From Enterobacteriaceae endosymbiont of Donacia vulgaris (GTDB lineage Bacteria; Pseudomonadota; Gammaproteobacteria; Enterobacterales; Enterobacteriaceae): a stretch of DNA of 64,000 bases. The notes under the pieces were generated by a model. It did no database searches, was not told the DNA's origin, and saw nothing but the letters and a program-made list of their open reading frames with translations. The first letter of the stretch is position 1, and each line of letters begins with the position of its first letter. The stretch covers positions 250,293 through 314,292 of the forward strand of contig NZ_CP046190.1 of the NCBI RefSeq assembly GCF_012568445.1. The letters run 5' to 3'. Positions 42,215-48,287 of this stretch are shown here, in pieces. The position numbers were made by a program, and so were the translations under genes.

Positions 42215-44089
42215 TTATATTAAAAAATTTTTTTGGTTTTCAAAAATATAATCTAAAATTTTTCTTAAAATTTTCCCGATTGATATATTTTTATCACTAT
42301 TTTCTATAATAATAGTAATAGCTATTTTAGGATTATTAAAGGGAGCAAAAGCTATTACCAGTTTATGATCTCTTAATTTTTCTTCTATTGTATTTATATT
42401 ATATTGTTTTGTATTTTTAAGATTAAAAACTTGTGCAGTTCCAGTTTTCGCTGCTACATTATAATTTTTTACATTAGAAAAATACTTATATAAAGTACCA
42501 TTTTTTTTATTTACTACATTAAACATTCCCTTTTTTACTATATTCCAATACTGTAAAGGTAAATCTACTATTTTTTTATATTTTGGTGAAACATAATATT
42601 TAAAAATATTATTTAATTTTTCCATCTTATAAAGATGAAGATGTTTTATAAAACCGTTATTAATTAATATAGTTAAAGCATTATGTATTTGTATAGGAGT
42701 AGCATTCCAATAACTTTGCCCTATACCAACAGAAATAGTATCTCCTATATACCAAGGATTTTCTATATTTTGTAATTTCCATTTTTTTGTAGGTAAATTA
42801 CCTAATTGTTCATTAAAAAGATCAATATTTGTTAATTTTCCATAACCAAATTTATGCATCCATTTATGGATTTTATTAATACCTATATTATAGGCTAACT
42901 GATAAAAAAAAGAATCTGAAGATTCTTGTAATGCTTTATTAATATTAAGATAACCATGACCATTTTTTTTCCAATCTTTATAAATTTGATTAAATTTAGG
43001 AATTTTCCACCATCCAGGATCAAATAATATTGTATTTTCACTTATTAAATTTAAATTTAAAGCTAATAAAGCTATATATGGTTTAATAGTAGAAGCAGGT
43101 GGATAAATTCCTTGAATAGCTCGATTTATTAAAGGCTTATTACTATTTTTGAGTAAAAAATTTAATTTTTTTTTTTCATTATTATTAATAAATAAATTAG
43201 GATTAAAACTAGGGGTAGAAACCATAGCTAAAATTTCTCCATTTTTAGGATTACTAATAATAACAGTTCCTTTTTTATTTTTCATTAATAAATAAATGTA
43301 TTTTTGTAAATTATAATCAATTGTTAAATAAATATCACTCCCTGTATATGCTTCTTTTTTGCAAATATTATATTTATAAAAACCTTTATTATTTATAGCT
43401 ATTTTTTGATAACCAGGAATACCATATATTTTTTTTTGATAATATTTTTCAATACCATTCATTCCAATTGAAGAGTTATCAGTATAATTTTTTACAGAAT
43501 TTTTATTTCTAAAAATAATTTTTTTTTTTATATTATGAGAATTGATATATCCAATAACATGAGCAAAAATTTTTCTCTGTGGATAAAAACGTTTTTGATA
43601 TATTTTTAAGTATATTCCAGAAAATTTATATTTATTTACTAAAAATTTCGATACTTGTACATTATTTAAATCTATTTTTAATAAAATAGTTCTTAATGGA
43701 TTATCTTTTATTTTTTGATTTATTATATTTATTAGATTATATATATCAATTTTTAATTTTAATATTTTTTTTAAGTTTACAATTTTTTTTAAAACATTAC
43801 TATTATTATTTAATTTAATTTTAACTTGATAAAAATTTTTATTTTTAGCTAAAATTATACCATTCCTATCGTAAATTAATCCTCTATTAGGTTTTAAAAA
43901 AAAAAAACTGGAATAATTTTTTTCAGATTGTAATTTATATTTTTTATAAGATTTTATTTGCAAATAATATAAATTATATATTAGAATAAATAATAGTATT
44001 GAAAATACTTTAATTAAAAGTTTTATTCTCTGTAAAAAAATTTTTGATTTTATTGTATAATTTTGTAAAAAATTATATTTTATACTCAT
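42215..44089 (-). CDS. mrdA: Penicillin-binding protein 2
   Basis: Transpeptidase partner of RodA. The 624 residues consist of one membrane anchor (about 27-46), the pedestal domain and the transpeptidase domain with SxxK S333-K336 (PASTIKPY), the SSD variant of the SxN motif (ESSDSFFYQ) and KTGTAQ near 550. E. coli PBP2 also has SxD, so this is not decay. The region around 60-66 includes a T12 tract. Operon with rodA; E. coli nadD, rsfS and rlmH are missing between it and holA. Confidence 0.96.
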   Translation of the reverse strand: MSIKYNFLQNYTIKSKIFLQRIKLLIKVFSILLFILIYNLYYLQIKSYKKYKLQSEKNYSSFFFLKPNRGLIYDRNGIILAKNKNFYQVKIKLNNNSNVLKKIVNLKKILKLKIDIYNLINIINQKIKDNPLRTILLKIDLNNVQVSKFLVNKYKFSGIYLKIYQKRFYPQRKIFAHVIGYINSHNIKKKIIFRNKNSVKNYTDNSSIGMNGIEKYYQKKIYGIPGYQKIAINNKGFYKYNICKKEAYTGSDIYLTIDYNLQKYIYLLMKNKKGTVIISNPKNGEILAMVSTPSFNPNLFINNNEKKKLNFLLKNSNKPLINRAIQGIYPPASTIKPYIALLALNLNLISENTILFDPGWWKIPKFNQIYKDWKKNGHGYLNINKALQESSDSFFYQLAYNIGINKIHKWMHKFGYGKLTNIDLFNEQLGNLPTKKWKLQNIENPWYIGDTISVGIGQSYWNATPIQIHNALTILINNGFIKHLHLYKMEKLNNIFKYYVSPKYKKIVDLPLQYWNIVKKGMFNVVNKKNGTLYKYFSNVKNYNVAAKTGTAQVFNLKNTKQYNINTIEEKLRDHKLVIAFAPFNNPKIAITIIIENSDKNISIGKILRKILDYIFENQKNFLI

Positions 44090-44121
44090 TATTATTTTAT
44101 ACCTATATGATTAAAAATTTT

Positions 44122-45114
44122 TTATGAAATTAAAAAAATTAATTTTTCTAAATCAATCCAAAAATATTTTTCTGTATAGTTATTTATTATAAAACTTTTA
44201 ATATTTATTTCAATTTCTAATAATAATTTAAATATTAAATGGAATTTTTGATTATTCATTCTCTTTAATATTTTTTTATAAAAATATGATTTTGATAAAG
44301 ATATTAAAAAATTTTTAAAAATTATATTTAAAGGATATTTTTTTAAATTTCTATATATTTTAAAAATTAAAAAAAAAGTTTTCTGTAATTTATTAAAAAT
44401 TAAAAAAATATTTTGTTTATTTTTTTTCATTTGTCTAATAATTTCAAAACTATTTTTTATATCACCTTCTAAAATAGAAGTAATTAAATTACTATTTTTT
44501 AGATAAAAAACATTATCTAGATAATTTTGATTGTTTTTATTTATATAAATATTTTTTATAATTTGATTTAATAACATTAAATTTTTTGAATATAAATTTT
44601 TTAATAAATTACAATTTTTTTTATTTATATATAAATTAAATTTACTAAAACGATAATAAATCCAATTAATTAATTTTTTACCATTTAATTTATTATATAT
44701 ATAAAACACTAAATATTTATTATTTATAAAATTTTTTATAATTTTTTCTATATATAAATTTATATAATCATGAATTTCTAAAATTAAAATATTATTAATA
44801 TCGATATATTTAATTATATTAATAATATTATTTTTAAATTTAAAAAAAATTTTTTTATTTAAAAAAATTAAATGTATTATTTGTTTTTTACAAAAAAAAT
44901 CAATTATAATAAATTTAGAAAAAATATCATTCCAAATAGTATTATCATCAATAATTATTATTTGATTTTTAAGATAGTCTAATGTTAATAATTTTTTAAA
45001 TAATAAATTTATTTTTCTTTTAATAAAAAAAATTTCATCTCCAGCTATAATATAACAAAAATATTTTTTATTATAAATATTTTTATCAAAATTATATAAC
45101 AATATTTTATTCAT
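44122..45114 (-). CDS. holA: DNA polymerase III delta subunit HolA
   Basis: Clamp-loader subunit that opens the beta clamp. The 330 residues (E. coli 343) are highly diverged and Lys/Asn/Ile-rich, with the weakly conserved N-terminal YIIAGDEIFFIKRKI and a helical C-terminal collar. Assignment rests on this and on order: E. coli has leuS-lptE-holA-nadD-rsfS-rlmH-mrdA-rodA, and here leuS-holA-mrdA-rodA remains. Confidence 0.85.
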   Translation of the reverse strand: MNKILLYNFDKNIYNKKYFCYIIAGDEIFFIKRKINLLFKKLLTLDYLKNQIIIIDDNTIWNDIFSKFIIIDFFCKKQIIHLIFLNKKIFFKFKNNIINIIKYIDINNILILEIHDYINLYIEKIIKNFINNKYLVFYIYNKLNGKKLINWIYYRFSKFNLYINKKNCNLLKNLYSKNLMLLNQIIKNIYINKNNQNYLDNVFYLKNSNLITSILEGDIKNSFEIIRQMKKNKQNIFLIFNKLQKTFFLIFKIYRNLKKYPLNIIFKNFLISLSKSYFYKKILKRMNNQKFHLIFKLLLEIEINIKSFIINNYTEKYFWIDLEKLIFLIS

Positions 45115-45171
45115 TTTTTATTTAAAATTACTTATTTAATTAGATATTTAAATTTATAAATACGATTATTA

Positions 45172-47724
45172 TCACGTTTTAATTGTGGTTACTATATTAA
45201 ATATTTTTTGTGGTATATATATTATTTTTATTATTTCAACATTTATTAAAAGTTTAGATATTTTATTATGTGATAATACATATTTTTTAATATAATTCTG
45301 TTGATCTTTATATTTATCAAGTATAGATAAAATATATTTTTTTTTTCCATTTATTTGAATTACAATATTAAATTTATTATTTATTTTTTTAGTATCAATT
45401 TTTATAATTAAAGGCCATGACTCATAATCTATATCATTTTTATTTCCCATATATTTCCATAATACAAAACAAATATGTGGAGTAAACGGATAAAGCATTT
45501 TTAATATAGATAATATACCATTAAAAATAATGGTATGATCAATATCATTAAATATTTTATATTTTCTAATTTTATTAAATAAAATCATTATTGATGATAT
45601 GGCCGTATTAAATGATTGATTATGTTCAAAAATATTTGTTACTTTAGTAATAGTTTTATTTATATAATCTTGTATTACTAATTGTTTTGTATTATGAAAA
45701 AAAAGTTTATTATTTTTAAGTTTTTGATAATTATCAAATAATTTTTTATACTCATAAATAAATATCCATAATTTGTTTAAAAACCTATACATTCCTTTAA
45801 TTCCTGTTTCTTGCCATTCTAAGTCTATTGTTGGGGGAGCTGCAAACATAATAAAAAGACGTAAAGAATCTGCTCCATATTTTTCAATAATTTTTTGCGG
45901 ATTAATACCATTATTTTTCGACTTAGACATTTTAATCATACCATTATTAATTAATTTTCTTCCTTTTTTATCAATAAAAATATTATTTTTTTTATCAAAA
46001 AAAACGTTTTTTTCTTTTACCCAATGATATTTTTTTTTTTTATCTATATAATAATAAGAATTAGCTAATACCATTCCTTGACATAATAAGTTTTTAACTG
46101 GTTCATTAGTATTTAATAATCCTATATCTCTCATTAATTTATGAAAAAAACGGAAATATATTAAATGCATTGTAGCATGTTCTATCCCCCCAATATATTG
46201 GTCTATAGGTAACCAATATTGAGCTTGTTTTTTATTTATCATTCTATTTTTTTCATTAGTACAAGTATATCTAGCATAATACCATGAAGATTCAATAAAA
46301 GTATCAAATGTATCCGTTTCAAGTTGACCTATTACTCCATTATTATTATATTTAAACCAATCTAAATTATTTTTAATTTTTTCACTATAATTATCTTTTA
46401 TATTTGTATTAAAAAATTTTTCTGGAAATACAAAAGGTAAATTTTTTTGTTTTAATGGTATATACTGTTTATCTTTTGTAATAATTATAGGAATTGGTGT
46501 TCCCCATATACGTTGTCTTGAAATACTCCAATCTTTTAAATTAAAAAATTTTTTATAAAATGCTTTTTTTTTTAAAATTAAAGATTTAATAATTAATTCA
46601 TGATTATTTTTAATATTATTAGATAAATTTAATATTTTATTTTTTGATATAATGGACATATTATATTCATGGATAAAATCACAGTCTTTTTTATTATATT
46701 GGGGATTACTAATAGTAGCTTTAATATTACTGTAATTAGATAAATAGTTTACAATTATGATTGGAATTTTTTTTTTAAGGAAAGTATTATATGCAAATAA
46801 TTCACTATTAATATATTTTATCTTGTTAAATTGAAAATTATTATTTTCTAAATACAAAGCAGATGAATATTTATTAATAAATTTTTTAATTTTTTGATTA
46901 TTTATAAATTTTTTACATATTGAATGACTATATAAAATTTTAATAAAAGAAATATTATTAATAATATAATAATCTTTTTTTTCTATAAATACACTAAATT
47001 TATAATTAATATTATAAATTTTAAAAATTACTTCTATTCCTTTTATTTGACCAATCCAATTTTTTTGCATATTTTTTACTTTTTTTGGCCAACCATGTAA
47101 AAATTTTAAATTATTTAGTAATTCTTCTGCATAATTAGTAATTTTTAAAAACCATTGTTGAACTTGTTTTTTAGTAACAATACTATTACATCTCCAACAA
47201 CATTTATTAATTACTTGCTCATTAGCTAATATAGTTTTGTCAGTATTACACCAATTAACTATATCATTTTTTTTATATGCTAATCCTAATTTATATAATT
47301 TTAAAAAAAACCATTGTTCCCAACGATAATAATTAGGATCACATGTTGTAATTTCTCTATCCCAATTAAAACTAAATCCTAATAGTTGGAGTTGTTTTTT
47401 CATATATAAAATATTATTTTTAGTCCATATATTGGGAGATATATTATGATTATGAGCTGCAATTTCAGCTGGTAACCCAAAAGCATCCCACCCAATTGGA
47501 TGTAAAACATTTTTTCCTAACATTCGTTGATATCTTGCAATAACATCTCCTATAGTATAATTACGTACATGTCCCATATGTAATTTACCAGAAGGATATG
47601 GTAACATTGAAAGACAGTAAAATTTTTTTTTATTGTAATTTTCAATAACATCAAAAGTTTTTTCATGTTCCCATTTTTTTTGTACATAAAATTCTATTTC
47701 TTTAGGAAAGTATTCTTTTTTCAT
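45172..47724 (-). CDS. leuS: Leucyl-tRNA synthetase with degenerate editing domain
   Basis: Class I enzyme charging tRNA-Leu. The 850 residues (E. coli 860) keep the synthetic core: HMGH at 49-52 (LPYPSGKLHMGHVRNYTIGD), zinc-type CCWRC near 175-179, ETDTFDTFIESSWYYARYT and KMSKS at 598-602. The CP1 insertion (about 228-395) keeps its length but not its motifs: the Thr-rich TTRPDT stretch and the GTGAVMAVPxHDxRD block are not recognisable, the latter replaced by NPQYNKKDCDF at 340-350. Aminoacylation is probably intact and hydrolytic editing probably lost. Confidence 0.95.
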   Translation of the reverse strand: MKKEYFPKEIEFYVQKKWEHEKTFDVIENYNKKKFYCLSMLPYPSGKLHMGHVRNYTIGDVIARYQRMLGKNVLHPIGWDAFGLPAEIAAHNHNISPNIWTKNNILYMKKQLQLLGFSFNWDREITTCDPNYYRWEQWFFLKLYKLGLAYKKNDIVNWCNTDKTILANEQVINKCCWRCNSIVTKKQVQQWFLKITNYAEELLNNLKFLHGWPKKVKNMQKNWIGQIKGIEVIFKIYNINYKFSVFIEKKDYYIINNISFIKILYSHSICKKFINNQKIKKFINKYSSALYLENNNFQFNKIKYINSELFAYNTFLKKKIPIIIVNYLSNYSNIKATISNPQYNKKDCDFIHEYNMSIISKNKILNLSNNIKNNHELIIKSLILKKKAFYKKFFNLKDWSISRQRIWGTPIPIIITKDKQYIPLKQKNLPFVFPEKFFNTNIKDNYSEKIKNNLDWFKYNNNGVIGQLETDTFDTFIESSWYYARYTCTNEKNRMINKKQAQYWLPIDQYIGGIEHATMHLIYFRFFHKLMRDIGLLNTNEPVKNLLCQGMVLANSYYYIDKKKKYHWVKEKNVFFDKKNNIFIDKKGRKLINNGMIKMSKSKNNGINPQKIIEKYGADSLRLFIMFAAPPTIDLEWQETGIKGMYRFLNKLWIFIYEYKKLFDNYQKLKNNKLFFHNTKQLVIQDYINKTITKVTNIFEHNQSFNTAISSIMILFNKIRKYKIFNDIDHTIIFNGILSILKMLYPFTPHICFVLWKYMGNKNDIDYESWPLIIKIDTKKINNKFNIVIQINGKKKYILSILDKYKDQQNYIKKYVLSHNKISKLLINVEIIKIIYIPQKIFNIVTTIKT

Positions 47725-47828
47725 ACAAAAATAATTCCTGAATATATTATTAAATATTTCGTATATTAAAATAAAATAATTATTTTATAAAAAATCTTTT
47801 ATTAATTTTAATTAAATATAAATTTAAC

Positions 47829-48287
47829 TTAAAAATATGGATTTTTATACCCAAGTAATTTAAGTATTTTTATTTCTTTTAATTGCATTATACATGTTTC
47901 TTTAACGTTTTTATGATTATATGCTAATAAATGTAAACATGCATGTATAATAATATGTGCCCAATGAGATTTTAATGATTTTTTTTGTAAACAAGATTCA
48001 TACTCTATAATTTCTTTACATAGGATAATATCTCCTAATAATGTTTTTTTTAAAATATTTTTTTCTAATAAAAAAGATAAAACATTAGTTGGTTTAGAAA
48101 TATTTAAATATTTTTTATTTAGTTTTAAAATAAATTTTTTCTCTACAATAGAAATATTTAATTCAATTTTTTGAATATTTTTTTTAAAAAAAATTTTATA
48201 TAACCAATAAAAAATATCATTTTTTAAAGGTAAATTATTGTTATTTTTACAAAAATTATAATAATTTAAAACTATATTTAATTTCAT
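47829..48287 (-). CDS. ybeY: Endoribonuclease YbeY
   Basis: Zinc endoribonuclease in 16S rRNA 3'-end maturation and ribosome quality control. The 152 residues carry the metal motif HxxxHxxxxxH (IIHACLHLLAYNHK) and the upstream LNKKYLNISKPTNVLSF segment. In E. coli the order is miaB-ybeZ-ybeY-ybeX-lnt; ybeZ is absent between miaB and ybeY here. Confidence 0.93.
   Translation of the reverse strand: MKLNIVLNYYNFCKNNNNLPLKNDIFYWLYKIFFKKNIQKIELNISIVEKKFILKLNKKYLNISKPTNVLSFLLEKNILKKTLLGDIILCKEIIEYESCLQKKSLKSHWAHIIIHACLHLLAYNHKNVKETCIMQLKEIKILKLLGYKNPYF

Follow-up and report, generated by a model that had tools for sequence, protein, structure and literature searches.

Leucyl-tRNA synthetase of reed beetle endosymbionts very probably lost its editing by relaxed selection and kept the CP1 shell

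The leucyl-tRNA synthetase (LeuRS) encoded in the endosymbiont DNA analysed here very probably lost its editing function by relaxed selection, with the shell of the editing domain being kept. The gene, leuS (45172–47724, minus strand), was located in a window of 64,000 nucleotides from contig NZ_CP046190.1 and encoded a protein of 850 residues, of which residues 1–845 matched Escherichia coli LeuRS with an E value of 3.8e-242 in a phmmer search against solved structures. The gene was flanked by two frames that we take to be holA-like and ybeY-like. In a protein search of named genomes, the window LeuRS shared 69% identity with that of the Donacia piscatrix endosymbiont (NZ_CP046200.1). The genome of the window was composed of 465,742 bases in two contigs, a reduced size, and the association of reed beetle symbionts with their hosts is obligate (abstract of PMC12508126). 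The genus referred to below comprised the endosymbionts of reed beetles (Donaciinae), represented by 24 genomes including that of the window.

The synthetic site of the enzyme was well preserved. The HMGH motif (residues 49–52; 47569–47580, minus strand), the KMSKS motif (residues 598–602; 45919–45933, minus strand), and the ETDTFDTF motif were all located in the window LeuRS, as the earlier note had stated. When 32 synthetic-site residues were checked, using leucine-pocket residue numbers that we assume to be correct, 31 were invariant in the genus and identical to those of E. coli. The varying residue, at position 572, was Asp in 16 genomes and Asn in 8. A compensating change was sought among these 32 positions and none was seen. 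The full-length match, the HMGH and KMSKS motifs, and the leucine-pocket residues identified the protein as a bacterial LeuRS. The joint reading, that this LeuRS would charge leucine normally and would have lost post-transfer editing, is one that we hold with strong confidence.

The CP1 editing domain, hinges included (residues 222–404; 46513–47061, minus strand), was degenerate in sequence and was identified by PF13603, the Pfam model of the LeuRS editing domain, and by profile matches to solved LeuRS and CP1 chains. PF13603 was matched in LeuRS of all 24 genus members, and the domain with its hinges contained 183 residues, compared with 204 in E. coli, in agreement with the earlier description of a CP1 domain kept near full length. 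The former Thr-rich loop, SVFIEKKDYYI (residues 244–254; 46963–46995, minus strand), corresponded to TVYTTRPDTFM of E. coli in the pairwise and MAFFT alignments. The segment VFIEKKDYY was aligned without gaps to VYTTRPDTF, the residue numbering being identical in both proteins at this motif, and TTRPDT of E. coli (residues 247–252) was replaced by IEKKDY through the changes T247I, T248E, R249K, P250K, and T252Y, with D251 unchanged. The CP1 stretch of 183 residues contained two Thr residues, neither of them within the former loop. The TTRPDT motif was therefore unrecognisable, as claimed before.

The second motif of the domain was altered in a different manner. The VPGHDQRD block of E. coli was now NPQYNKKD (residues 340–347; 46684–46707, minus strand), and in a slightly longer stretch VPGHDQRDYEF was replaced by NPQYNKKDCDF. 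Residue Asn344 of the window LeuRS corresponded to D342 of E. coli, whereas Asp347, whose codon was located at 46684–46686 (minus strand), corresponded to D345 and was kept, as in all 24 genus genomes. The pairwise HMMER alignment, the MAFFT alignment of 49 genomes and E. coli K-12, and the alignment of a genus profile to solved chains were mutually consistent at this block. The earlier note had described the key aspartate as aligned to Asn and had thereby named the wrong residue, since Asn replaced D342 and the catalytic D345 was retained. The alignment with E. coli and other endosymbionts that it had proposed thus upheld the loss of the Thr motif but not the loss of the catalytic aspartate. 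In E. coli LeuRS, the only negative determinant protecting Leu-tRNA from hydrolysis is T252 and D345 promotes catalysis (passages of PMC9023258), the D345A enzyme is a published editing-deficient mutant (passages of PMC4932531), and editing is disrupted by T252Y (passages of PMC4695839).

The same pattern was found throughout the genus. Residues T247, T248, and T252 (E. coli numbering) were all lost from LeuRS in 24 of 24 genomes. Position 247 was occupied by Ile (22 genomes), Leu (1), or Lys (1), position 248 by Glu (15), Lys (6), Gln (2), or His (1), position 252 by Tyr (9), Phe (6), Ile (5), Gln (2), or Lys (2), and position 342 by Asn (20), Asp (3), or Ser (1). Of the residues expected in a competent editing site, the Thr motif (T247/T248 and T252) was therefore lacking and D345 was present in every genome, the sole position kept in all 24 among 15 tabulated motif positions. 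No small residue was found at position 252 among the 24 genomes. A large residue at this position in every genome is consistent with a blocked pocket, although the assignment of position 252 is less secure in part of the genus, because a two-residue insertion was placed by MAFFT directly after the former Thr loop there. The genus formed a single clade with a support of 100/100 in a LeuRS tree built without CP1. Since the Thr residues were kept by no genus member, the loss would most simply date to the ancestor shared by the reed beetle symbionts or earlier.

The pocket and the domain were compared with those of IleRS and ValRS of the genus, using pocket columns and CP1 limits that were picked by hand for all three enzymes. 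The mean pairwise difference in LeuRS was 0.44 at 15 pocket columns and 0.49 in the rest of CP1, and 1157 of 5000 random column sets were equally low. The corresponding values were 0.09 and 0.35 in IleRS and 0.05 and 0.32 in ValRS, with no random set of 5000 being as low in either enzyme. The LeuRS pocket was thus not more conserved than the remainder of its domain, whereas the IleRS and ValRS pockets showed strong conservation. The ratio of CP1 distance to body distance was 1.79, 1.30, and 0.97 in LeuRS, IleRS, and ValRS, and CP1 had diverged further than the body in 276, 274, and 112 of 276 genus pairs, respectively. In seven close pairs, omega was 0.45 (bootstrap 0.36–0.58) for LeuRS CP1 and 0.22 (0.19–0.25) for the LeuRS body, and it was 0.36 (0.28–0.47) for IleRS CP1 and 0.21 (0.16–0.29) for ValRS CP1; these values are rough, because they were obtained by simple codon counting in AT-rich genes, and the intervals of LeuRS CP1 and IleRS CP1 overlap. 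Since CP1 of IleRS also evolved faster than its body, some of the CP1 acceleration is not peculiar to a loss of editing. The pocket differences, which were near those of the rest of CP1, together with the CP1 omega indicate that the pocket is free and the domain loosely held, and such loose purifying selection would account for the retained scaffold. The proposal of the earlier note, a synthetase that retained the scaffold without post-transfer editing, finds good support in this pattern of sequence evolution.

The retention of D345 bears on an alternative in which CP1 has residual or altered activity anchored by this residue through the alpha-amino group, either as slow hydrolysis or as non-hydrolytic binding that aids product release. 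Residue D345 was the sole invariant column of E. coli residues 228–412 across the whole set of 37 symbionts with small genomes (24 of the genus and 13 others), and the CP1 omega of 0.45 agrees with some constraint on the domain. The replacements of T252 were all large, and because T252 shields Leu-tRNA from hydrolysis (passages of PMC9023258), an occupied pocket would prevent futile hydrolysis. However, the remaining pocket residues were as variable as the rest of CP1, and 13 of 146 columns, D345 among them, showed no difference within the genus, so the constancy of this residue alone is not rare. Furthermore, D345 was replaced by His in relative G031 and by Glu, Ser, and Asn in Buchnera of Chaitophorus, PSpyr, and PC38, respectively, whose rows were added to the existing alignment. 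D345 as a sign of retained function was weakened by these four cases, and we consider residual activity improbable in comparison with the loss of editing from a retained shell.

The LeuRS set was taken from 49 of 119 relatives searched, comprising the 24 genus members, 13 others no larger than 0.8 Mb, and 12 with larger genomes; the 13 were all other relatives listed at that size, the 12 were hand-picked, and L055 was excluded because it duplicated G036 (L036). The IleRS and ValRS sequences came from 43 and 40 of the 119, with the same 24 and 13 genomes plus 6 and 3 larger ones, respectively. Among the 13 small relatives, all four residues were kept in 4 for LeuRS, 8 for IleRS, and 12 for ValRS. 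When G031 (2.0 Mb) was included, having been joined to the 13 only after its LeuRS looked degraded, the counts were 4, 9, and 13 of 14, respectively. These counts of residue identities, as distinct from activities, suggest a tendency for LeuRS to be the first affected among small symbionts. Small genome size alone was no predictor of loss, because the 4 relatives that kept all four LeuRS residues included G056, a single contig of 352,837 bases (~0.35 Mb). Among the 12 larger relatives (at least 1.0 Mb, not all free-living), T252 was kept in 10 and D345 in 11, the exceptions being G031, without T252 and D345, and G038 (1.0 Mb), with T252I. The editing site was thus mutated in the genus and kept in most relatives with larger genomes. 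In G031, the LeuRS pocket read ISCPHI and D345H was present, the corresponding residues of IleRS and ValRS being kept, and this genome perhaps represents an early stage of loss. Changes around the editing motifs were also observed in IleRS (L157) and ValRS (L145) of G044, a small symbiont.

The other editing enzymes of the same genomes presented a mosaic of kept and altered sites. The TTTPW[TS] motif was retained in IleRS and the TTRPET motif in ValRS; residues T242, T243, T246, and D342 of IleRS were all kept in 20 of 24 genomes, with T246S in G011, G013, G014, and G015, and residues T221, T222, T226, and D286 of ValRS were kept in all 24. AlaRS, ThrRS, PheRS, and ProRS were compared within the 24 genus genomes. 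The HxxxH and CxGTH sites of AlaRS, labels that we take to be the standard ones, were kept in all of them. The ThrRS frame was just 417–457 residues long in 24 of 24 genomes, with the E. coli match beginning at residue 212–240, and lacked the TGS and editing domains. In the genome of the window, thrS (L190:1447-2718; G000:C1 around 95604-96791, outside the window) encoded 423 residues without these N-terminal domains. The frame directly upstream of it was methyltransferase-like, presumably prmC/hemK, and not an editing domain. No free-standing gene for the lost ThrRS domain was found in the 24 genomes at E values up to 1, and a separate replacement was rejected, since the matches in 2 of 24 genomes were both inside the alaS stretch.

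In the PheRS beta subunit (L210, G000:C1:99061-101514 in the genome of the window, outside the window), Gln was located at the position of E. coli G318. This Gln was present in all 24 genomes, A356 was lost in 24 and T354 in 23, E334 was kept in 24, and R244 was kept in one, that of the window; the subunit was 30–37% identical to that of E. coli, and the position labels apart from G318 are assumed. Changes at G318 obstruct access to the site and lower editing more than 70-fold, and E. coli with PheT G318W grows normally except with m-Tyr (passages of PMC4066437). By analogy, Gln318 probably occludes the PheRS editing pocket. The insertion domain of ProRS contained 179–186 residues in 22 genomes, compared with only 28 residues in G018 and G019, whose ProRS frames (L246, 435 residues, and L247, 429 residues, respectively) were without the insertion editing domain. 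The change in LeuRS therefore looks like one of a set of apparent losses, with the ThrRS domain deleted, the PheRS pocket probably occluded, and the ProRS domain deleted in two genomes.

Adaptive mistranslation, in which selection would have promoted the loss for the advantage of a statistical proteome to the symbiont, is very unlikely. A mutualist of insects does not have to evade the adaptive immunity of a vertebrate, the pocket residues are spread over many states, as expected of decay, and the Ile, Val, and Ala editing motifs were retained. Such mistranslation has been proposed for parasites (passages of PMC7373986 and PMC10057733), and the apparent loss of three editing functions across the genus would fit it. 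Least probable of all is that the pattern was produced by misalignment or by an AT-rich codon bias turning ACN into ATN and AAN, for although CP1 of the genus was on average 18% identical to that of E. coli and the GC content was 0.164 over 44001–48000, the three kinds of alignment concurred, a Thr-rich stretch was sought elsewhere in CP1 and none was found, and AT bias was ruled out by the IleRS and ValRS motifs kept in the same genomes.

According to the explanation that we favour, decay of the editing site under relaxed selection, the hydrolytic pocket of CP1 would have been released from selection inside the sheltered host, and T247, T248, and T252 would have been replaced, the last by a large residue (Tyr, Phe, Ile, Gln, or Lys) in all 24 genomes. 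The CP1 domain would have been retained, probably because two hinges build it into the protein and because it aids folding of the enzyme and guiding of the tRNA 3′ end. Mischarged tRNA-Leu would then be left unhydrolysed. The main error is likely to be norvaline at Leu codons and not isoleucine, since the errors of E. coli D345A LeuRS at Leu sites were almost only norvaline, reaching ~10% under microaerobic growth, and isoleucine was negligible (passages of PMC4932531). The expectation in the earlier note of Ile/Val or norvaline misincorporation is thereby narrowed to norvaline, with Ile and Val set aside.

The supply of norvaline was considered as a reason for the loss, namely that a symbiont without ilvA would face no norvaline threat and would have no need of editing. 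No ilvA match over the family cut-off was found in the 24 genus genomes, with weak matches in 9, and ilvE was matched in 22, in 21 of them over the family cut-off. This idea is not decisive, because synthesis of Leu, Ile, and Val is kept in reed beetle symbionts and the ilvA step has been proposed to come from the host (passages of PMC7289800), so that, with the ilvE matches, 2-oxobutyrate would still be needed. In G018 (G018:C1:192694-193585), ilvE was split between two matches that fell short of the family cut-off, and a TAA lay inside one of them; the gene may be decaying, or the assembly may be in error there.

A wider reading is put forward only tentatively, as a possibility on which we would not rely. 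A fidelity floor may exist, in which proofreading of Ala-, Ile-, and Val-tRNA would be indispensable and that of Leu-, Thr-, and Phe-tRNA (and Pro-tRNA in two species) dispensable, with norvaline present at a measurable fraction of Leu codons and the Asp-bearing CP1 shell serving as a non-hydrolytic docking site. The retained editing activities would then be those mattering most to a cell. Reed beetle larvae live submerged. Together with the rise of norvaline misincorporation under microaerobic growth in E. coli without LeuRS editing (passages of PMC4932531), this habitat would lead to norvaline at a measurable share of the Leu codons of the symbiont. If true, the genus would provide a replicated and ranked loss of proofreading in 24 genomes, with the kept editing enzymes as controls in the same cell. 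One could then test which editing activities are dispensable to a cell and whether a natural proteome takes up norvaline after the loss of LeuRS editing.

No paper on editing loss in reed beetle symbionts was found in literature searches that took reed beetles and editing as separate subjects and covered article texts without supplements. In the two papers on reed beetle symbionts that were examined, PMC7289800 and PMC12508126, the term tRNA synthetase was absent, and the term editing was absent from the former and confined to the author contributions in the latter (four matches). PMC6321566 contained none of the LeuRS-editing terms looked for.

When compared with the engineered E. coli enzymes, the window LeuRS shared Tyr at position 252 with the T252Y mutant; it differed from T252Y and D345A in being natural, in having lost T247 and T248 as well, and in keeping D345. 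The engineered PheT G318W carries Trp at position 318, whereas the genus carries Gln, the effect of which is inferred. The LeuRS editing motifs of Buchnera of Chaitophorus, PSpyr, and PC38 were eroded as in the genus, but D345 was lost there, unlike in the genus. In Mycoplasma mobile LeuRS, the only comparison drawn in the earlier note, CP1 is deleted, whereas it was kept in the genus. In Mycoplasma, editing by LeuRS, PheRS, and ThrRS was lost by mutation or deletion (Li et al. 2011, as cited in passages of PMC4014445, PMC7373986, and PMC10057733), and both the three enzymes and the combination of mutation and deletion are the same as in the genus. According to a review, no Mycoplasma genome was known with at least three of these editing functions lost (passages of PMC7373986), whereas three look lost in each of the 24 genus genomes, plus that of ProRS in two, and these genomes therefore appear to exceed the Mycoplasma limit. 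The contrast is lessened by ProRS of Mollicutes, which is of the type without a cis-editing domain (passages of PMC4014445). Degeneration of aminoacyl-tRNA synthetase editing sites in host-restricted bacteria was described by Melnikov et al. 2018 (as cited in passages of PMC7373986, PMC10057733, and PMC11020763), in a survey that predates the 2020 genome paper on reed beetle symbionts. Those bacteria resemble the genus in host restriction, small genomes, and mutated editing residues with synthesis kept. The genus differs in that the change was followed in 24 genomes of one lineage, with the Ile, Val, and Ala motifs as internal controls, and in that D345 was kept. Editing loss in host-restricted bacteria is thus already in print, and the present case is made more useful by its 24-genome resolution and its internal controls.
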